64,000 bases of DNA. It comes from Acarospora socialis (Eukaryota > Ascomycota > Lecanoromycetes > Acarosporales > Acarosporaceae). The notes beneath the pieces are model-generated. The model was not told the origin of the DNA and made no database searches. It saw only the letters and a list, made by a program, of their open reading frames with translations. Shown in pieces: positions 1 to 55,772 of the stretch. The translations under genes and the position numbers were made by a program. The stretch covers positions 1,178,001 to 1,242,000 of the forward strand of contig JAMYGW020000001.1 of assembly GCA_025617375.2 (NCBI GenBank), given 5' to 3'. The stretch's first letter is position 1. Every line of letters begins with the position of its first letter.

Positions 1-3000
1 TATCTGGTGTATGAGCCGAAATAATCTCCCTTTTGATCTCCACAGGGTGAGTCAAACGCCCATGCCGGAATGATGAGGGGCCAGAGGTCTCAATCTCATG
101 GTAGGAACGAGGTAAGTATCTCTCTTCGGAGCCTAGATACCTGACTAATATAGGGCGTGAGATTCGCGAGTCGTCGTCCTGTTGCGAACGTCTGCCATCA
201 TCCCGGTATCGTAGTGCTTCTAAAGGTTGGCGGTATCGGTCGTGATCCTCTTTCGCCAGTACTTGCACAGCCTCCTTGCGCCGAGGCTGAGGCCTCGCAT
301 TATGCTCAGGAATATGTTCAAGATAAGCCGGTCGATGTGGATCATACTCGTCTTCCTCTGGTGGCTCCGACACTTTGGGATTTCTGGATGCCGGTCGATC
401 GATGGAGCTCGGATAGGGCGCCTTGGATTGCGCTCGTACAGGATTTGCGACGCCACCAGAAGGCTGCTGTAGTGAGCTAGTGACTCTGCTCAACGGTCTA
501 TACGGCGAGTCGCCGTTCGACTTCAAGAGCGGATTTCGAATAAAACTATTAGCCTCTTCCACGGCATTAGACTCTTCCTTGATCTTAGGTGTTGGCCCCG
601 TGTTACCACCCGGCCCAAGCTCTGGTAAGGGCGGAGGAAACATTTGGGGAAACGCTGAGGCAATGAGATGTAGCTTGGTATCGTCCATGCCGGGTGCATG
701 GACTAAACCAGCAATCAACGATCGCCCAGGGAGTTCCACCATGTCAACTTTCCAATCCAGCCTTGGAGCCACGTTGCCAGTGTTTAGATCCAAAGTGGAC
801 TTGGCTCGCTCAACGTGCACAGACTTGAAATGACTGAGTAGAGACGGCAGAGCATACAACTTCCTATCTCCCACTGGAGGATGAGAATGAGAGTGGAAAG
901 CTGCACCCGGGCCATTGCCGCTGGTAACACAGGTCTTGCATGCCAGGCCGTTCAGGTTCCTAATGGGCTTCATCAATCCGCTTTTGGCAAGTCCATCTCC
1001 AAACATGGCTAAGCTCGGTTCGTTAGTAAACTTGGCTTGGAACCTCAGCACAACATGGAAAACGATCACGTATACCCGCACACTGCTTGGCAAGTCCTTA
1101 ATACTGGAGGTACCGTTCCAGATCTCGCGCGCAATCCTTGCCATTTCATTCATCTGGACCTGATATAAATCGGTTGGCTGGCCTGCGGGTGTATTATGCG
1201 AGGCCTCGGATGGCCAGGCATTTATCGCCTGTTGCTGATTGTGATGAGCGGGATACGCCGAAGCAGATGGTACAGGTGGCCCATATGGAGCCTGGGTCGG
1301 TCCATAACCCTGAGACACCATAGAATCCGCTACCTGATTCATAGGTAGATAGGCTGGGCCAGGAAACGGTGAGTTGTATATTTGTGGCATCTGCCCTTGA
1401 TACTGTCCGGAGTACCCATCATACCCGTTATTAGGACCGGAGTAACCAATCCGTACATCAGGAAAGCCGGCCCGGTTTGGAAGTCCCGGCTGGAAATTCG
1501 GAGATGTTGGTTGGAAGCCCGGTCCATAACCTTGAGGTCCCTGAGGCGGCGGCGGGGCAAAGGGGCCAATCCTATTTGATGGAAATTGTCCCGGGTACGT
1601 TGTATGAGCAAACGGCCCCGGACTGAACTGTGGATAAGCGTGAGGTTGCTGCGTAATTTGTGGCCCATGCTCTATATGCTGGCCATATCCACCATATCCA
1701 TTCGGTGGCTGAAGAGCTGGTGGGGGAACTGAACCGTGCCCTTGAACCAATCCCGGAGCAGGTGTGGGCACCGCATAAAATGCTGTCTTGGCAGCACTGG
1801 GGTTGGGATGAAACGGAGGATGTTCAGGCCACTCTGCGCGCCAGTGGACCACGACGCTGCCCATACTCAAGGTGCTCGTATGCTTTGCAGCATAATGTTG
1901 GATGACGCCCTCAAAACCATAGAATTTGAAATTACTGTCACAACCATTACATAGGAAGAGTTCTTTCTGGAAATGTTCCGTGAGTGGCTTGATCTTGGTG
2001 TCGAAGACCCATTTCATATTCTCGAGGATAAGTTTCCGAGTAGGTGGTTTATCCGGCTGATCGTATGGCACCGGGTGGCCAGCGGAGCGAGCAGTGGCGT
2101 TTTCTTGAGCTATATCAGCATAGAACCTCTCTCGAACATACAGCAAAACGTCGGCCGCAAATCGCGGACTAGCATCCTTAGAGACGGCTCGACCTTCTGA
2201 CCATTTTTCGCGGATGATCTCATCTGCGTATAGGGCAAGGCGGTCACGGATGGGGGCCTGGATATCATCCCATTCTCGCTCTAGTGCTTCCTTAGTCTCT
2301 TTCGAATGGACATCATGCTGTCGGCGCTCCTCGGACTTTAACAGGAGATCTTGGTTTCGCATAATTCGGTCGTGCTCCCGACGTTCCGCAATAATCCTCT
2401 GCGCCAGCAAACGGGGTTTAAGGACCCCCCAAGCACTATCCGTCAGCGGTGTCGAAATTTGAATAGCAGCTTGAAAGGATTCCATATGGTTCAGCACATT
2501 CGGTAGTAAGGGTGGATCGAATTCCATACACCGACGCTCAATCTCGGCGCGTCGGTTGGCCTTGGCTTCATTTACATCTTGAATGTTCCTTTTTACCTGA
2601 GGCTGCTGAAGAATGCTCTGTTGATGGTATCCGAAGCCATTGTGTAAAGGAGAAACGGAGAACCTCGGAGGCGGCGCGACAGCTACAGGGGCATATTAGT
2701 GAGCTAAGAAAAGAATATCTGCGAGCAGAGTAGGGCCTCTCATCACTTACAATAGCCACGATTTGGCATGGGAGTGACTGTTGTGTAAACTGTGGGCGCC
2801 GGACTGAAAGTATTGCCTGGCCCCTCTGTGTTGTTGTTGGCACAACCCGGAGTAGAGCGTTCCGAGCCAACGTCGTTCTCCACAGCGTTTGCGACTGGAG
2901 GAGATATCGATGTGGTACTAGTGGAATGTAGGGCTTGAGAGGCGGACCCCTTCGTAGCAGGCCTAAAATTGACTTTCCGCAACCCACCCTTGGACTCCCA

Positions 3001-12557: not shown

Positions 12558-14477
12558 ATGGTGGACGGAGACACGAGTTCCCCAACATGGAAGTTCACTC
12601 AGTGAGTTATTCCCTGATTATTGGAACCAGAGAAGATGTGTTGGATCAGTTACACACCGCTGCCTTGGAGCTCAGCACCTGTTTCAGATGTCAACGCATC
12701 TTTCAAACTTTTATGGCAATTGATTGTAAAGGCAATGGGCTCGGAAGCTGATGATATTTGGTTAGGTGTTTTGGCGATAAGGGAGACGTGGAAGATATCA
12801 CAGAAGGTATGTTCCCACCGCCTCAGCGTCTGGCTTACTTGCCACTTATTACAACAGCGTCATTACACATTGCTTGGTTGCTCACAAATCTCTCTACGCA
12901 TAACGATGAGCTAATGTAGATTGACAAATGTAGCGGACATCATCTCAACCGTCGAATTCGATCACACCGGCAACTATCTAGCAACGGGTGACAAAGGCGG
13001 GAGAGTCGTACTTTTTGAGAGGAACGAGACTGTACTTAAGCCATCTTTCCACTACGATAGGTCAAGACCAGAGTTGACTGTTTGCAGAAAAAAACATGCG
13101 AGTACAAATTCCATACCGAGTTTCAGTCACATGAACCAGAGTTCGACTATCTCAAATCGCTGGAGATTGAAGAGAAAATCAACAAGATCAAGTGGTGCCG
13201 GCGACAGAACGCCTCCCACTATCTACTTTCCACGAATGATAAGACGATAAAGCTATGGAAAGTCTTTGAGAAATCGCTCAAAGTGGTGGCGGAGAACAAC
13301 CTATCACATGATCTAACACCCGGAGGACCTGTAGGCGGTGGCGGGGCAGGTGTCTCTCGGCCTAATATCAACACCTCATTTCGTGATGCATCTTCCCTGA
13401 AACTGCCACGTCTCACACACCATGACACGGTGGTTGCTGCGGTACCTCGACGAACCTACGCCAACGCTCACGCATATCATATCAATAGTATATCGGTCAA
13501 CAGTGATGGCGAGACATTCATCAGCAGTGACGATCTTCGAATTAATCTGTGGAATCTCAACATACAAGATCAAAGCTTCAACATCGTTGATATCAAACCT
13601 GCGAATATGGAGGAGCTCACCGAAGTTATAACGGCGGCAGAGTTCCACCCTCAGAGCTGCAATTGGTTCATGTATGCAAGCTCGAAAGGGACTATAAAGC
13701 TGGCAGACATGCGAGAGAGTGCACTCTGTGACCAGCATGCCAAACGTAGGTCAACCTGAAAGCGCATTTCAGTATTCGGGACTTCTCTTAACAGCATACT
13801 ACAGAGTTTGAACAAGAAGAGGACCCATCCTCCCGATCGTTCTTTTCCGAGATCATATCCTCTATATCCGATGTCAGATTCTCACATGACGGACGCTACA
13901 TCCTTTCCCGCGATTACCTTACGGTCAAGATCTGGGATGTTAACATGGAACGACAACCGGTGAAGACCATCCCTATCCACGAGCACCTCAGACCTCGGCT
14001 CTGTGACACATATGAGAACGACAGCATCTTCGACAAGTTCGAAGTCGTCTTCTCCGGCGATGCCAAGAATGTAATGACTGGGAGTTACAACAACAACTTC
14101 ATGATCTACCCATCAGATCCTGATAAGGAGATGGAGGTTGTGCTACAAGCAGATAAATCGGCCTTCAAGCAAAAGAAAGTTGGGGTACCAACGCCTATAA
14201 ACTCCGCAACGAGTCCGACGAATGCGACGAACAGCAAGAAGGGCAGTTCAAGGGCAGGTAGCCCGGCTGCAGGCGCAGGGGGACAAGGTGGGCGCATGCG
14301 AAAGGAAACAGATGCCGATCAGATCGACTTCAACAAGAAAATACTGCACATGAGCTGGCATCCATTCGAAGACAGTATAGCCATTGCGGCTACAAACAAT
14401 GTGAGCCAAATTCTAACCTACTCGAGACGAGACCTGCTAACCTTTAAATCTAGCTATTCGTGTTTTCGGCATTGTAA
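12558..14477 (+). CDS. CDC55: PP2A regulatory subunit B55 (Cdc55/PabA)
   Basis: Exons 12558..12601, 12766..12806, 12934..13031, 13088..13745, 13805..14400 and 14454..14477 give 486 residues. The first small exons spell [15 protein letters not shown] and [13 protein letters not shown], the invariant N-terminus of fungal B55. The seven-bladed WD40 propeller follows ([53 protein letters not shown]). The last exon of 24 nt ends LFVFSAL. The Ser/Thr/Ala-rich insertion before the final blade ([14 protein letters not shown]) is the variable loop of the fungal proteins. B55 directs the PP2A core to substrates in mitosis and growth control. Five introns crowd the 5' part, which is typical. Confidence 0.95.
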
Positions 14478-23603: not shown

Positions 23604-26600
23604 ATGGAGATGGAGCCATACAATCAAGAAACGCAGCGCCCTCTGTGCTTGCTTTCTCTGGGTTTGTCTTCCGTGAAGACGCTTGAAGCCTTGACTAACA
23701 TGCTTGATAGATGGCGGTGGCACAAGAGGTATCTCGATGCTGATTATACTAGACGAGATAATGTATCGTGTGAAACGGGCGCAAAACCTTACTCACACCC
23801 CTCGGCCAGCCGATTACTTTAACATCATCGGTGGCACAAGTACCGGAGGGTGAACAGCTATTTGCTATCATGGCTCTCGGTGCCAAAATGTGCTGACATT
23901 AAAACAGAATCATCGGTATTATGCTGGGACGCCTCAGATTGTCGGTACCTGAAGCTATAGACAAGTATCGACTTCTCGCAAAAGAAGTGTTTTCAGGAAG
24001 AAAATCAATAGGATCAGATGGAAAATTTAAGGCGTCGAACTTGGAGAAGGTCTTGAAAGATGTTATAGAAGCAGCACTGGGTTACGGTCACACGGAGGAA
24101 AAGATGTTTGTGTCTGAAGGGAGCAACCAAGCCTGCAAAACGTGAGTATCGCTATTGTTCGCTTGTACACATCAAATAATGAATTTGTGATAGTTTCGTG
24201 TGTGCTGCTGCAGCGCAACATCTCAATCGCCAACCGACATTGTTCCGGACGTGGCCAGCAGACAGAAACCCAGGCTATAACTGTGCCATCTGGGAAGCTG
24301 CCCGTGCTACGTCGGCTGCTCCAAGAATTTTCGAACGTATACTGATTGGAGAGCCTGGGTTACAAGAGGAATTCATCGATGCCGCGCTGGGTTTTAACAA
24401 CCCAGTGAAGCAATTGATCCAGGAAGCTGTACGTGAATATGCAGCGGAGAGACGTGTTGGTTGTATCCTCAGTCTTGGTACGGGCATGCCAGATGTCACC
24501 AGACTCAAGAAGCCAGGGGTCGTTCAAAGCATTTTACCGACTGACCTTATCAATGTCTTGAAGGACATCGCCACTGATTCAGAAGCAGTGGCGAGGGAGC
24601 TGAACGAGAGATATAGGAACTGCCCTGGAGTATATCATCGACTGAACGTGGATCGAGGCCTTGAGGATGTCGCTCTCGACGACTGGGAAAGGCTTGGCGA
24701 GATTAAGACGCATACCAGGATTTATCTGGAGTCTGATGGTGTCAGCCGAGAATTAGATGAGATAGCAGCCGCACTAGTCGGGCGATCTGATTGCGCGTTT
24801 ACTCTTGGTCAAATAGGTACCTGAGATGGTCACTTATATATACGACATAATATACTGATATTAGAAGATGGATCTGTATTCGCCTCTAGCCCCTCCGTGA
24901 CTTTCTATCAATATCCAAACTACAAGGTCAACCATTTCGTTGCCCGAGAAAATCCTCTCAATGAAATAGAGCAAAATCACCAGAGCCATGACGGGGCTGT
25001 GACTGCCAAGGTGGTCGTTCTGCAGGGAATGGGCGGATGTGGAAAATCGCAACTTGCTCTTGAATATTGTGAGCGAGCTCAACGTGATAAACGATTCAGT
25101 GTCATCTTCTGGATCGATGCGACCTCCCCAACCACGGTAGCACAGAGCTACATGGCCTTCCCTGAGAGAATCTTGAAGGGCAAGACAGACGCTGCTAACG
25201 AAGAAGCAAACGCCCGAGTCGTTCTAGATACCATAAGTACGTGGACGATGCCGTGGTTGCTTGTCTTCGACAATTTCGATGAACCAAAAGCTTTCGACAA
25301 GCAGCCCATAAAGGACTTCTTCCCTCGCGGCGGAACAGGATCTATTCTCATTACCAGCAGACATGCCGCATCGAAATCCTTGGGGCACGCCATTATAGTC
25401 ACCAACATGCTAGAGAAGGAGGCGTTGGAGCTGCTTTTCCGTAGGTCTGGGTATGAACGAAAGAATGATGGGAATGTTGTTGAAGGAATGAGGATTGTCA
25501 AGAGACTGGGTTTTCTTGCACTTGCCATTGATCAAGCTGGGGCATATATCTCAGCTCGAAGTATTGGATTCCATTTATACATGGATCACTACAACAATCG
25601 TCGAGACAAGGTCTTGAGGGAGATCCCAGACCTATGGGACTATCGAAGAAAGAGGAGTGAGACAGAAGCCGAGCAATTCTTGAGCGTCTCAACGACGTGG
25701 GAGTTATCATATGAGCAAATTCGAGGAGATACCAATACACGCGAACGTAAACAGCGTATCCTCGACCTTGCTGCATTCTTCGATAATAAGAGCATATCGG
25801 AAGAGCTCTTTGAAACTGATTGTGGGATAGAGGCCGAAGAAACGATGCGTTCAGTAGGCTTCATACCTGTCTGGGATAAGTATGAGTTCCTGGACATGAT
25901 AGCAGAGCTACACAATCTGTCCTTGATCCAGAGCCTTGAACATGACGCAGCAGTCATATCCTTTTCAGTGCGTAGGTTTATCGTTTTCTAACATGTGTTT
26001 CATTCAGTTGATCATGCATTTCATAGAGGGCTTTTACTCTTAGGTGCAGGTGCGGTAACTCAAGCTGTGGCTGATAACCAAGGTTTTAGATCCACTCATC
26101 CAGGATTGGATCAAGCTGAAGCTTGACGCTAATACTTGTCATGGCATCACCGTTCTTGCAACCGTGATTCTTTCCGAGCACATATCCCAGCACCTAGGAG
26201 CCAAGGCTGCGGGAAATTGGACATTCCTGGAGAAGCAAACAGTTCTTTCTCATCTGACCGCTGCTCTCGATAACAATCGGAATTATCTGACGCAAGGGCC
26301 TTCATTAGGAGAAGGTCCCCTCACGATCCCTGCACTTCGTTTCACGTTGTTCTTCCTCAATCAAGGAAGGAAAGAGGGCTTTGCACTGTGGAAAAAGCTG
26401 TTCACAGTGCTTGACATTGAGCCGCGCTTTGGATTTGAAGGCATGCTACTAATGACTCATGGCCAGGCACTTGTTTATAAGGATCAAGGAGAGTACTCTA
26501 AGGCAGAGTCATTGTACAATCAAGCACTTATGGCAGGGAAGGAGAAGCTGGGCACTAATCACCCAAGCACACTGCTGATAGCTCGGGGACTTGCAGAGCT

Positions 26601-27348
26601 TTATGGAAAGTTAGAACGATATAGTGAGGCGGAGACGCTGTTGAAGGAAGCTCTAATGGGCTTCAAGAAACAGCCGGGTGCTGATGATAAGAGCACACTG
26701 TGGACAGCTCAAAGTCTTGCGTCGGTCTATGTATATCAGAAAAAGTACAGTGAGGCAGAGATGCTGTACAAGGACATATTAACGCACATGGAGAAGCAAC
26801 CGGGGTCTGGTCACCAAGCCGTGCTGGTATTACTGTCAATCTCGAGCCTTGCGTTGTTTTATATGGAACAGGGACGACATAATGAGGCAGAACCCATACT
26901 GACGGAGGCCTTAAAAGATTATGAGACGCAGCTGGGTCCTGAGCATCCTTGCTTACTGGAAGCAGCTCAGAACCTTGGGTTTGTCTATCGACATCAGAAT
27001 CGATTTGATGAGGCAGAGAAGTTATATAGACGAGCACTAAAGGGTTTGGAGAAGTCGCTAGGCGTTGAGCATGCCGAAACTCAGCTCATTGTTTTGGACC
27101 TTGAGGATTTGCAGTACGATCGCAAACTTCACAAACCTCTTCAAGTGGAAAGCGGCCTTAAGGCGGAGAGCGAATCTCTTCAATTGCAAAGAGACCTTCT
27201 TCCAGCGAAAAGCGAACTTCAAGAGGAAAGCATGCTTCTTCAAGAGGAAAACAATCTTCTTCAAGAGGAATACAACCTTCTTCGGGGCAAACGCGACCTT
27301 CTTCAGGCCGAGAAAGATGACCTAATGACTGAGCTCTCCAAGTTCTGA
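23604..27348 (+). CDS. NOD-like receptor: patatin-like phospholipase, NB-ARC, TPR
   Basis: Exons 23604..23661, 23711..23849, 23908..24141, 24194..24816, 24865..25971 and 26090..27348 give 1,139 residues. The patatin domain (about 14-330) has the oxyanion motif DGGGTRG at 20, nucleophile motif GTSTG near 62 and catalytic Asp in DAALGF near 206, so it looks active. The NTPase has P-loop [14 protein letters not shown] near 405, Walker [33 protein letters not shown] and a winged-helix-like [11 protein letters not shown]. From about 840 to 1050 come about five 42-residue TPRs ([36 protein letters not shown]). The tail is a Leu/Gln/Glu heptad coiled coil. In filamentous fungi this architecture belongs to NLRs, some of which trigger heterokaryon incompatibility. 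The trigger ligand is unknown. Confidence 0.92.
27139..27327 (+). repeat. Nine 21-bp degenerate units encoding a heptad coiled coil
   Basis: Nine in-frame heptads from LQVESGL through [14 protein letters not shown] and GKRDLLQ to AEKDDLM. The central copies share CTTCTTCAAGAGGAA. It forms the C-terminal tail of the NLR after the TPRs. Confidence 0.85.
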
Positions 27349-43342: not shown

Positions 43343-45149
43343 CTAGTACTCGCCGTCACCGCCAGCGTCAGGGTCAACGCTGTCACTGGCGACTTCCTCA
43401 TAGTCTTTCTCCAGTGCGGCCAAGTCCTCCCTTGCCTCGCTAAACTCGCCTTCCTCCATCCCTTCTCCAACATACCAATGCACGAATGCACGCTTGGCGT
43501 ACATCAGATCAAACTTATGATCCAAACGGCTCCATGCCTCGGCAATGGCGGTGGTGTTGGACAGCATGCTGACGGAACGATCGACAGGAGCGAGCTCGCC
43601 GCCTGGAACGCGGACTGGCTTTTGGTAATTTATGCCAAGCTTAAAGCCGGTAGGGCACCATTCCACGAGGTTAAACGAATTTTTGGCTTTGAGTGAGGCG
43701 ACAGCGGCAGTGCATTCTTGTGGGACTACATCACCACGGTAGAGCAGCGCTACCGCCATGTACTTACCATCTGAATAGATCCAGTTAATACGGTTTCAGA
43801 ATGAAGATGAGACGAAAGACTTACTGCGAGGATCACAAACGACCATCTGATTGTTGGGTTCAAAGCCTAAGAGCATTAGCGTTCAATATGGCGAATGAAA
43901 GAATGAAGTTACATTGAAAGGTCAGCTCAGCGACTCTGAAGCTCTCGTGTGAACTCTTGTTGCTCGATACGACCGGAGCGTAGCTGATCAAAGGATAGTG
44001 GATACGGGGGTAGGGAACCAGATTCGTCTGGAATTCGTTCAAATCCACGTTCAAGGCACCATCGAACCTAAGACTTGAAGTGATAGAGCTCACAACCTGA
44101 GCTATGAGGCGATTGAGATGCTCGTAGCTTGGGCGAGGAATATCCAGATTGCGGCGGCAGATGTCATAGACAGCCTCATTGTCGACCAGAAAAGTGCAGT
44201 CCGAGTTCTCGATAGTGCTATGGGTTGACAACACCGCGTTGTATGGCTCTACGACCGCGGTAGCGACGCGAGGAGCCGGGTAGACAGCGAATTCGAGCTT
44301 GGACTTCTTTCCATACTCGGTGGACAGACGTTCCAAGAGCAGGGCACCGAAGCCAGAGCCGGTGCCGCCGCCGAAGGAGTGGAAGATTAAGAATCCTTGA
44401 AGGGACGAGCAATTGTCTGCCGCGGCGTGAGTAGGGCAGCTGACTTATGACAGATTGAAACCCTACCAGCAACGCGACGAACGCGGTCGATGACGTTGTC
44501 CACCAATTCTTTTCCAATTGTGTAGTGGCCACGAGCGTCTAATACGCGCCGTCAGTATTGCCAGCCGGGCTATGTTATACGAGTAACACACAGTTGTTGG
44601 CAGCATCTTCTTTCCCGCTAATCAACAGCTCTGGGTGATATAGCTGCCGATACGTGCCAGTGCGGATTTCGTCGATTGGCTGTGATGTTTTTCAGCATCG
44701 CCCAGTGGACATCTCCTTAGTGACGGTACCGATGGGTCTAAATCGACGAAAATCGATCGAGGCACGTACTTTCCTCTTCCCGTCTCGGTGAAGAAGGTCT
44801 CGAATGAACCAGCCTCGCCGATGTCCTTGGCTTCGGGATCAGGATGACCATCGGCCTTCAAGCCATGCTCGAGAAGGTAGCTGTCCTCAGCGGTCAGGTT
44901 CGTAGTGTGGTTCTCTTGTTGGCCGAGGCGGTGAAGGTGGAATGCTTACAGTTCCCAAGCACTGTTACCCAGTTGCGTGCCGGCCTGACCAATGTGAAGA
45001 TGACAGACCTATGACTGAAGGTCAGTATGAGGTAGGTATTAGTCTACTATTGTAACTCATGTGAATTCAATGTCCGGGTTGTGGACGCGTCGAGCTGTCC
45101 ATGGTAAACACTGAAACACTGAAACGTAACCACGTACCTCGCCCCTCAT
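43343..45149 (-). CDS. tubA: Alpha-tubulin
   Basis: Exons 45149..45138 (12 nt, MRGE), 45008..44950, 44880..44730, 44679..44592, 44538..44467, 44416..43913, 43866..43825 and 43770..43343 give 451 residues, the exact family length. Marks are [26 protein letters not shown]-type GTP loop as [50 protein letters not shown] and the C-terminal tail GGDGEY, ending in the Tyr that is subject to detyrosination. Seven introns, several near the 5' end, are common in fungal tubulin genes. [10 protein letters not shown] at the start resembles the second (B-type) alpha-tubulin of filamentous fungi more than VISINIGQAG, so a paralogue may exist elsewhere. Confidence 0.97.
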
Positions 45150-46355: not shown

Positions 46356-49332
46356 ATGTCGACCCCTGTTCACGAACTCCCTCAGCCCATCTTCAATCCG
46401 CTCAATGCGGCGTCATCGTCGTCCGAGGACAATGGCACTTACGTGGGTGAGGGCTCGGGCTCATTCGAGAACGACCGGAACCACTTGAATCTCCAGACTC
46501 ATCAGGCAGCAGGTGACTATTATCTGTCGCCACTATCACCTTCTCGGACCCGCGAGCAAGAACACCGTTTGGACGACGATTTGGCCGTGGCCCAAGCCGA
46601 GCAGGTAGCTTCCAATGTGCAACCCTCGGAAGGCAGAAGCCATGTATTGAGTCCCATGTTGATCCATCGATCACGCTCCCGCCGGACCGACCCGGTGGAC
46701 GACTTTGACGTTGCTACCAATCCTATACACGAGAAAACCTCGGGTTATAAACCCCCGGACCATCCGTCCACGAACTTCGCCAAATTTTTCAAGAGAATCC
46801 ATAACTCGAGCGTCTTGGTCAGATACTTCACGTACATAGTGCCGGTGGTGACGCTGCTACTTATTCCGTTGCTTTTGGGTGCTCTGGTGTTCAAGGATGC
46901 TAGTATCGGCGGGGTGACATTGACTTGGTTCGCCGTCTGGCTTGAGATAGACTTCCTGACCCTGTTCGCTGGGAGAGTAAGTACGCTGTGATTAGTTTGG
47001 TGGATGGATTCGTACTGATCAATCACAGATTGTTGCCAAATGCATCCCCTGGCCTATGGGCCTAGTTTCAAGCCTTTTCACAAATAACAGTAAGAAGTGG
47101 AGAGACATGGGCAAGCAGCTTGAGATCCCGGCGACGATCTTCTTCTGGTGGCTCGGAATCGAAATCTCCTTCCTTCCAACAATGACCAACCATCATACGA
47201 ACGGAAACAATGGCATCAAACCCTGGGAGGCGACAATGAACAAGATCATCGTCTCCATATTCGTGGGCGCAACTCTCAATTTCTTCGAGAAAGTCATCAT
47301 TCAACTCATCGCGATCAGCTTCCACTTGCGGACATATTCCGATCGGATAGAGATCAACAAGTTCCAAATTGGGAGTCTGACCAAACTTTATCAATATTCC
47401 AAACAAAAGATTGCCATGGACGACTCCGAGTTTGAGGAAGATGGACCTTCAAAACCAGCCTCTGGGGCAAGAACTCCAGCTCAATACTTGGACAAAGCAC
47501 AGAGAAACGCCCGGGAAGCCCTCAACGCGGTGACAGATGTGGCGGGCAAGGTGGCCATGGACTTCACCGGAAAAAGCGTGCTGAAGAGTACACATCCACA
47601 ACAGGTCATATTGACTCTCCTCAACACCACGAAGGGCAGTCAGGTCCTCGCTCGTCGCTTGTATAGGACATTCGTACGGGAGGGGGAGGAGACTGTTTCA
47701 TCAGACGATCTGAAGAACGCCTTTGACAACAACGAGGAGGCCGACGCTGCTTTCACCATGTTCGACAAGGATATGAACGGCGATATATCTATGGAAGAGC
47801 TCGAGGCTGTATGCGTGGAGATCGGCCGGGAGCGAAAGTCCATCACTGCTTCATTGAAGGACCTCGACTCAGTCGTTTCCAAACTAAACAGCGTTCTTTT
47901 TTTCATTGTTGTGATCATTGCTATCCTAGTTCTCATTTCGCTAGTGTCCACCTCCGCCGCCGGTGTCCTCACGTCTCTCGGGTCAACGGTACTTGGTCTC
48001 GCATGGCTCTTCTCGGCAACTGCTCAGGAGTTCCTCCAGTCGGTTGTCTTCGTTTTCGTGAAGCACCCGTTCGATGTCGGCGACAGAGTTACGGTTTATG
48101 GCAATACCGGTGTCTTAGGGAAAGGAGACGACTACTTTGTGAAGGAAATCGCTCTTCTCTACACGGAGTTCAAGAAGTTGGAAGGGCATGTCGTTCAAGC
48201 ACCAAACAGCTATCTCAATACACTTTTTATCCTGAATATGCGTCGTTCAGGTGGTCTCGCGGAAGCAATTCCCATGGTCTTCAAATTCGGCACGACCCTT
48301 GACCAGATTGATCAGCTGCGACAGCGTCTTCTCGAATTCGTAAAGAACGAGAAACGAGAATATCAGAACAATATACTGACGGAGATCCGAGCGATTGAAG
48401 AAGCACATTCAATGACTGTCAACGTTGTCTTTTTTTACAAGTCAAATTGGCAGAACGAGCTTCTGCGTCTCCAGCGCCGCAACAAGTTCATATGTGCGTT
48501 GATGGTCTCGATGCAGGAGCTTGGCATTGAAGGCCCACGCATGCGTCTTCCAGGTCAAAAACAAGAGTCTCCATACTACCTTCAGCATGTCACGCCGGAA
48601 GCTCCTCCCAGTGCCATTGGTTTCGAAGGCGGTCCGGGACCACGATCTGGCTCACTTTCAGGGGAGGCTCCGTTCGTCCCGAATGCCGCTGATGAGCCGG
48701 CGGTTGGACGTAATCCATCCATTCTTCGCCACGCACCCAGCACGTCCCGTGCCACACGTGCTCGTGGAGAGTCATTATCTGCTATGTCTAGGCGCGTCGA
48801 CTTCTCTCTGGGAATGAGAGATGTTTCTTCATCGGACATACTTTCGGATGTTTACGACGATAGGTCGAAATCTCGCGTGCCAGATTTCAACAGACCAACT
48901 GTCAGCACCCGGGATCGCAACAAAAGCGTTACCTCAGACCCAGATAGTATTGCACGGACTACCTCTCAAGACGTGGACGCCGCTTCACGATACAGCACCG
49001 ACTCCCAGAATCGGCCACGAGCGAGTCACTCCGCCATCCACCGCAACCGCTTCTTCGGTCGAAAGCGAGGATTCAGCAAGACGGGCACAGATCAGGAACT
49101 GATGGAGCAAGGAATGGCTGATATCCCCGAAGCTGCGGAGGGTTCCAGACATATGGATCCGAGGACTGGAGCAGTCAGTGCGACAGCCATAAGGTCAAAT
49201 ACCAACACTTCCACCTCTGACGAACCCAGCGCCCGTAATAGCTCCAAAGGAATTGGGGGCTTTCTCCGGAGGAGCCGGACAGATGACTTTGAGATGAGGG
49301 GTATGCGAAGTAAAGTTCGTGATATTGTGTAA
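46356..49332 (+). CDS. EF-hand MscS-family mechanosensitive channel (Msy1/Msy2 type)
   Basis: Exons 46356..46976 and 47029..49332 give 974 residues. After a disordered N-terminus come several membrane segments ([54 protein letters not shown]). An EF-hand loop [13 protein letters not shown] near residue 452 keeps the calcium ligands. The pore-lining region and MscS beta domain follow: [57 protein letters not shown]. The long C-terminal tail is Ser/Arg-rich. Fission-yeast Msy1 and Msy2 of this design sit in the ER and control calcium during hypo-osmotic shock. Location here is inferred from them. Confidence 0.93.
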
Positions 49333-55641: not shown

Positions 55642-55646
55642 AAAAA
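55642..55646 (-). terminator. RNA polymerase III terminator (T5)
   Basis: Five T residues on the minus strand, four bases after the tRNA discriminator base. Confidence 0.75.
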
Positions 55647-55649
55647 TAT

Positions 55650-55772
55650 TGAGCCCGGTCAGATTTGAACTGGCAACCTTTCGATCTGGAGTCGCTATGA
55701 AATGATCAGATGATATCCCGAGTGTGAAGTGCTGAAATTACCTACAACGCGCTACCGTTGCGCCACAGGCCC
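55650..55772 (-). tRNA. tRNA-Trp (CCA) with a 51-nt insertion in the anticodon stem
   Basis: Exon 1 is 55772..55746 and exon 2 is 55694..55650. The acceptor stem GGGCCTG pairs with CGGGCTC (two wobble pairs), with discriminator A. The D arm is GCGC AACGGTA GCGC. The anticodon loop CTCCAGA reads CCA, flanked by TCGAA on the 3' side. The T arm GCCAG TTCAAAT CTGAC has one mismatch. The only way to a paired five-base anticodon stem is to join exon 1 (ending TT) directly to CGA, removing 55745..55695. That insert starts GTAGGT, has CTGAT 12 bases from its end, and ends CATAG, like a spliceosomal intron. It is not at the usual tRNA intron site, one base 3' of the anticodon. A disrupted pseudogene is the main alternative. 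Confidence 0.82.

Follow-up and report, generated by a model that had tools for sequence, protein, structure and literature searches.

Spliceosomal introns are already known from rRNA and U6 genes, which are the nearest precedents, and tRNA genes would be a new host for them. In lichen fungi, Cladonia grayi included, spliceosomal introns occur in nuclear rDNA. The rDNA introns of C. grayi are described as being removed from the rRNA, and a spliceosomal one of 57 bp is also spliced out by yeast when transcribed by Pol I (PMC8527467). The U6 RNA of S. pombe, a Pol III transcript, is described as having an mRNA-type intron near its catalytic core, with reverse splicing as its presumed origin (PMC10484740). 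For tRNA genes themselves, eukaryotic introns outside position 37/38 are described as rare. They are recorded from nucleomorphs and from a red alga, their removal is attributed to the tRNA endonuclease, and odd insertions have been read as pseudogenes (PMC4090602).

A search of the open literature by title and start of abstract (bioRxiv and most subscription papers lie outside its scope) found no natural tRNA gene with a spliceosomal intron, and the exact phrase 'spliceosomal introns in tRNA' has no match in the same search. To our knowledge, the spliceosome is not thought to act on tRNAs. An artificial yeast tRNA precursor carrying a pre-mRNA intron was reportedly spliced by the mRNA route in the work of Koehrer, Vogel and Domdey in 1990. 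Here, we analyze a tRNA-Trp(CCA) gene within a 64-kb stretch of DNA (the window), which sits on contig C1 of the 31.1-Mb, 38-contig assembly that served as the genome searched. Judging from the gene sequences, it is very probable that the tRNA-Trp(CCA) gene is functional and that its 51-nt insert is an ectopic spliceosomal intron, one of at least 12 in ten nuclear tRNA genes of this fungus.

The tRNA-Trp gene of the window

Direct reading bears out the original prediction that 51 nt split the anticodon stem of the tRNA-Trp gene after its second pair and that their removal gives back five pairs. The spliced stem is TTCGA/TCGAA, presumably identical to that of yeast tRNA-Trp, and the loop is CTCCAGA. 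The cloverleaf is built by 72 exon letters on the minus strand (Table 1), with full pairing in the acceptor (7/7), D (4/4) and anticodon (5/5) stems. The acceptor stem, D arm, anticodon loop and terminator (T5) stand as originally described, but the T stem is not flawless, as it has 4/5 pairs with one mismatch. The A-box region is one that we take to match the Pol III consensus, and a canonical 37/38 intron is absent from the gene. The locus is flanked by protein-like ORFs.

The full insert reads GTAGGTAATTTCAGCACTTCACACTCGGGATATCATCTGATCATTTCATAG (51 nt; GTAGGT...CTGAT...CATAG). Its boundaries are unique because a single placement yields this spliced product, and the chance of GT, AG and a suitably spaced CTNAY occurring in it is p ~0.002 when 2 nt of slip is allowed at both ends. 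With 51 nt, it is too short for a group I or II intron, and no Rfam match to a group I or II intron core is found in the window, permissive filters included.

The gene is readily overlooked by tRNA finders. In the 64-kb window, a default Rfam scan and ARAGORN without introns both miss it, with no match, and it is under permissive filters only that the Rfam tRNA family RF00005 spans 55772-55650 end to end (36.4 bits, gathering 29, E 5.6e-4). Given the unspliced gene, ARAGORN calls no tRNA when introns are disallowed and a wrong tRNA-SeC(tca) when 37/38-type introns are allowed, while the insert-free gene is called as tRNA-Trp(cca) with a score of 115.8.

As comparators, we use four mRNA introns of the window that were placed by homology, since ab initio intron candidates are too noisy for the purpose (792 in the window vs 597-892 in six shuffles, with 125 vs 52-69 coding-consistent). 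The four introns (46, 52, 54 and 59 nt) are similar to the tRNA insert in size and start, and they carry CTNAY at 9-10 nt in two cases and TTAAC at 13-14 nt in the other two. The start of the Trp insert, GTAGGT, is that of the PP2A-B intron, and its CTGAT is that of the channel-gene intron, in what is a small sample of four comparators. The best six matches of the window's channel protein are at 84-92%, and below them the named species are Pleopsidium flavum (78%) and Pycnora praestabilis (70%), which suggests that the DNA comes from a lichen-forming fungus close to Acarosporales. Elsewhere in the window, at 24183-27348 (+), we observe ORFs whose translations resemble the patatin / nucleotide-binding / tetratricopeptide proteins known from fungal NLR-like genes.

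Twelve inserts in ten nuclear tRNA genes

To collect tRNA genes, T-arm patterns were listed genome-wide, and a script then sought acceptor and D arms at most ~300 nt upstream, with GT-AG not required. As the script demanded pairing in the T, acceptor and D stems, it would have missed any tRNA whose T arm or acceptor is interrupted by an intron. For the first pattern, 32 of the 39 T-arm matches were examined (30 loci plus L139 and L140), with six others lying on organelle-like or bacterial-looking contigs and C26:2964 left out. For the other patterns, we examined 49 among 100 matches listed of 126, 8 more, ~18 of 93, and 35 of 83. In a genome-wide Rfam scan, scores were obtained for 63 out of 1275 candidates; many of these are organellar, and a nuclear one is the Lys-CTT gene at C4:152727.

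Probable mitochondrial tRNAs, which lie on C15, C16, C33 and C38 and also at one end each of C1 (start) and C8 (end), were excluded, as were the bacterial-looking ones on C35. On C15, tRNAs are repeated at a spacing of ~131 kb, as if a circular organelle genome had been assembled twice, and the tRNA scores on C38 are the same as those at the start of C1. A bacterial-looking tRNA-Ser with an encoded CCA is found on C35. Two kinds of repeats with tRNA-like T arms were also observed: a family with the T arm GTGGGTTCAAATCCCAC (L066, L074, L077, L078 and L139), possibly a tRNA-derived element, and an 80-nt repeat in several copies with complementary ends, e.g. GATTCAG...CTGAATC (L175, L205 and L206).

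In total, we resolve 37 nuclear tRNA genes, of which 27 are without extra inserts and ten carry them. Left outside this set are L106 (large non-GT-AG insert), L079 (Leu-like, degenerate in appearance), L083, L088, L135/L149 (not resolved as tRNAs), L058 and L171. With introns allowed, ARAGORN recognizes each of the 27 genes that lack extra inserts as a tRNA, and the isotype read by hand differs from that of ARAGORN in four (L065 Lys-TTT, L061 Leu-CAA, L093 Tyr-GTA and L181 Ile-AAT). Among the T-arm matches examined, we did not find Asn, nuclear Asp, Cys, Phe, Thr-AGT/TGT, Ser-TGA, Leu-TAG or Pro-AGG/CGG.

The ten insert-bearing genes hold 12 inserts altogether, all of them away from position 37/38, and seven of the ten additionally have a canonical 37/38 intron. 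The inserts are 51, 52, 51, 51, 50, 86, 52, 53, 52, 56, 53 and 57 nt long, such that 11/12 fall within 50-57 nt. In 12/12, we observe GT...AG ends and a CTNAY whose A lies 9-14 nt from the 3' end, with the insert ends set by hand using GT-AG and the cloverleaf as guides and those in the D and variable loops not fixed by pairing. Six of the 12, including that of Trp, have one placement per product, and the rest have 2-5 equivalent placements. When the inserts are shuffled and 2 nt of slip is allowed, each form has p 0.0014-0.015, for a product of ~10^-27.6 over the 12 inserts, where the branch-distance window was chosen after the data were seen and the ends had been placed by hand with GT-AG in mind. 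The inserts are not significantly depleted in T5 runs.

Removal of all introns leads ARAGORN to the expected isotype and anticodon in 10/10 insert-bearing genes, compared with 0/10 called when the genes are left unspliced and introns are disallowed. With 37/38-type introns allowed, it reports 6/8 unspliced precursors; five of these receive a wrong isotype, and Arg-ACG is named correctly. In the Lys-CTT gene on C4, the D stem has 3/4 pairs. The inserts are real, lie well outside what chance would give, and belong to a pattern that recurs across the genome. The 11 further inserts of like form in nine other tRNA genes, together with the similar signals in homology-checked mRNA introns of the window, support the view raised at the outset that a spliceosomal-type intron sits in a Pol III tRNA gene.

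Introns outside 37/38 that are cut by the endonuclease are known from nucleomorphs and a red alga (PMC4090602), and the inserts could in principle be introns of this Sen type, located off the canonical position like those of nucleomorphs and Cyanidioschyzon and with a coincidental GT-AG look; an endonuclease with relaxed site choice had been raised at the outset. We consider this very improbable, as such an origin does not predict GT-AG ends and a branch site in 12/12 inserts vs 0/26 canonical introns (19 scored with 2 nt of slip and seven with 3 nt). The insert sizes moreover match the four mRNA introns of the window, whereas lengths of 3-24 nt are given for inserts in the Guillardia nucleomorph (PMC4090602). 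In a search for bulge-helix-bulge folds, the inserts form no helix above shuffles, but the 19 canonical introns used as positive controls form none either, so that these folds weigh neither for nor against endonuclease cleavage.

Table 1. Features of the tRNA-Trp gene, comparator mRNA introns, and tRNA inserts and related loci. Plain ranges are positions in the window; slashes separate neighboring tRNA positions.
Feature	Coordinates or tRNA position	Strand	Basis
tRNA-Trp(CCA) gene, whole	55650-55772	-	72 exon letters forming cloverleaf
tRNA-Trp 5' exon, positions 1-28 (acceptor 5' strand, D arm, anticodon-stem bases TT)	55746..55772	-	direct reading, Rfam match
tRNA-Trp A-box region TGGCGCAACGG, internal Pol III promoter (putative)	55755..55765	-	sequence and consensus
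tRNA-Trp 51-nt insert, probable spliceosomal-type intron	55695..55745; 28/29	-	sequence, signals, ARAGORN after removal; hand-assigned position
tRNA-Trp insert, 5' splice site GTAGGT (hexamer also in PP2A-B intron, 13746)	55740..55745	-	sequence
tRNA-Trp insert, branch-site-like CTGAT (branch A at 55706, 11 nt from intron end)	55705..55709	-	sequence
tRNA-Trp insert, 3' splice site TAG	55695..55697	-	sequence
tRNA-Trp 3' exon, positions 29-73 (discriminator A at 55650)	55650..55694	-	direct reading, Rfam match
tRNA-Trp anticodon CCA	55687..55689	-	sequence, ARAGORN
tRNA-Trp B box GTTCAAATC	55662..55670	-	pattern search
tRNA-Trp T5 terminator, Pol III type	55642..55646	-	direct reading
mRNA intron, mechanosensitive-channel gene, 52 nt, GTAAGT...CTGAT...CAG	46977..47028	+	spliced alignment to P0010
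mRNA intron, PP2A-B55 gene, 59 nt, GTAGGT...TTAAC...CAG	13746..13804	+	alignment to known proteins
mRNA intron, alpha-tubulin gene, 46 nt, GTAACT...CTAAT...TAG	43867..43912	-	alignment to known proteins
Lys-CTT on C4 (C4:152727), insert GTAAGA...GCTAACCAAAGCATAAG; gene also with usual 37/38 intron	variable loop		hand-assigned
Lys-CTT on C11, insert	30/31		hand-assigned position
Leu-AAG on C6, two inserts	D loop and 30/31		hand-assigned positions
Leu-AAG on C7, insert	D loop		hand-assigned position
Pro-TGG, insert	24/25		hand-assigned position
Arg-ACG on C2, two inserts	D loop and 32/33		hand-assigned positions
Ser-AGA, insert	24/25		hand-assigned position
Thr-CGT, insert	variable loop		hand-assigned position
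Elongator Met, insert	29/30		hand-assigned position
Degenerate intron-free Arg-ACG copy L058/L167	C13:727436-727496		87%
Degenerate intron-free Arg-ACG copy L171	C2:3613792-3613860		81%
tRNA-like gene L106	C2:2068067-2068407, 162-311		Rfam, 49 bits

Copy number, function and origin of the inserts

The original prediction had proposed counting tRNA-Trp(CCA) genes, and the window gene is the sole nuclear one found in the assembly. When the whole gene is used as a DNA query, the genome gives one match and no further copy. A spliced multi-tRNA DNA query, which is able to detect a diverged Trp copy because it recovered other tRNAs at 78-90% identity, returns for Trp the window gene's own two exons only. 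A 28-letter pattern from the Trp 5' half, with at most three mismatches genome-wide, matches tRNA-Arg-TCT only, and the pattern can therefore detect a tRNA with a canonical intron. The pattern running from the anticodon to the B box matches 12 places in the genome, namely the window gene, four mitochondrial-looking places (two on C15 and one each on C16 and C38) and seven others, which we take as chance matches because a backward control gave three. A Trp 3'-exon pattern has 0 matches in genome_contigs and viral_contigs, neither of which is a fungal collection.

The DNA search for further copies covered Trp, Lys, Leu, Pro, Arg and Ser. For Trp, elongator Met, Ser-AGA, Pro-TGG and Thr-CGT, the only gene found is insert-bearing, and inserts are carried by both Lys-CTT genes and both Leu-AAG genes found. 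No alternative decoder is known for Trp codons or internal Met codons. That the tRNA-Trp gene is a pseudogene killed by the insertion had also been considered at the outset, and this, with the working gene missing from the assembly, is very unlikely. Several isotypes were not found in this assembly of uncertain completeness and the gene has its one T-stem mismatch, but it is the sole Trp gene found, its cloverleaf, anticodon, B box and terminator are intact, and like introns occur in nine other tRNA genes, including the Lys-CTT and Leu-AAG pairs and the only elongator-Met gene found.

Two degenerate intron-free copies of Arg-ACG lend independent support to the predicted joins. In L058/L167, both predicted joins are exact, while in L171, the 32/33 join is exact and the D-loop insert is absent. 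L058 and L171 may be retrocopies of the spliced tRNA, or intron-free relatives, and given these copies, the insert-bearing Arg-ACG gene alone could be dispensable. As a point against the spliceosomal reading, a second kind of insert exists in the genome, as the anticodon-loop insert of the tRNA-like gene L106 is not GT-AG; it is large (~78 nt by reading), GC-rich and folded, and the simplest reading of the gene gives no T33.

Introners exist in fungi, and with eleven of the 12 introns being similar in length, recent introner-like elements, mobile or neutral, might be thought to have landed in the tRNA genes. Such an origin is highly improbable, however, as the inserts are mutually dissimilar (best local score among all 12 of 11 vs 13 for shuffled letters). 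The Trp insert, the one of the 12 that was searched (as part of its gene), has no other genome copy at BLAST sensitivity, and the introns at a shared Leu-AAG site have diverged. This site lies in the D loop of both Leu-AAG genes and holds introns of 51 and 86 nt. Because the site is shared, the lengths differ and the letters are no more alike than shuffles, the Leu-AAG D-loop intron looks old and retained, and the sequences suggest that an old intron has been kept.

Predicted processing and relation to known systems

We propose that Pol III would read the tRNA-Trp gene through its intron from the internal A and B boxes and stop at the downstream T run. With U1/U2-type recognition of GTAGGT and CTGAT in the pre-tRNA, the spliceosome would excise the 51 nt in lariat form and bring TT and CGA together, so that the anticodon stem could form. 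The usual end processing and CCA addition would then follow. Seven of these genes would additionally require the tRNA-splicing endonuclease to take out a 37/38 intron, before or after the spliceosome, and the precursor of the Leu-AAG gene on C6 has three introns (two spliceosomal in form) in ~200 nt. As D-loop introns interrupt the A box, they should weaken the Pol III promoter.

From the gene set as a whole, it is likely that spliceosomal introns have spread into a sizeable share of the nuclear tRNA genes of this lichen-type fungus (10/37 of those resolved), including the only Trp and elongator-Met genes found. Essential Pol III tRNAs would then obligatorily need the spliceosome, and seven of the genes would need the tRNA endonuclease as well. 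Slow growth has been linked in a similar proposal to the rDNA introns of lichens, and by analogy translation capacity might further be tied to spliceosome supply, an extension that we regard as rather doubtful. If the main reading is true, structured tRNA precursors made by Pol III are natural substrates of the spliceosome, which would be a third exception, after rRNA and U6, to the rule that links the spliceosome with Pol II. With two splicing machines on one short RNA, the sharing between them would become testable, as would the question of whether non-mRNA introns are tolerated by lichen fungi or put to use. Since tRNA finders miss or misname such genes, as ARAGORN and default Rfam missed Trp, lists of tRNA genes for fungi of this kind may then contain errors.

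When compared to the canonical 37/38 introns that are handled by the Sen endonuclease and a ligase, the inserts likewise interrupt nuclear tRNA genes of the same genome, but the canonical introns lie at another position and are without GT-AG ends and a branch site. The tRNA of Koehrer and colleagues was a laboratory construct, whereas the tRNA genes described here are natural. Several introns in one tRNA gene are also described from archaea, for instance at 29/30 and 30/31 (PMC4090602). In archaea, nucleomorphs and Cyanidioschyzon, it is the tRNA endonuclease that removes such introns, and the main text of the review that describes them is without the string 'spliceosom' (PMC4090602). The U6 gene of S. 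pombe is described with a single intron (PMC10484740), unlike the 12 at scattered tRNA positions here, in a genome whose own U6 gene (one above the cut-off) is intron-free. The lichen rDNA introns are likewise short spliceosomal introns in a non-mRNA gene with a transcript that is not made by Pol II (PMC8527467). Their host is rRNA, transcribed by Pol I, and the main text of that paper is without 'tRNA' or 'Pol III' (PMC8527467), whereas the host here would be tRNA.
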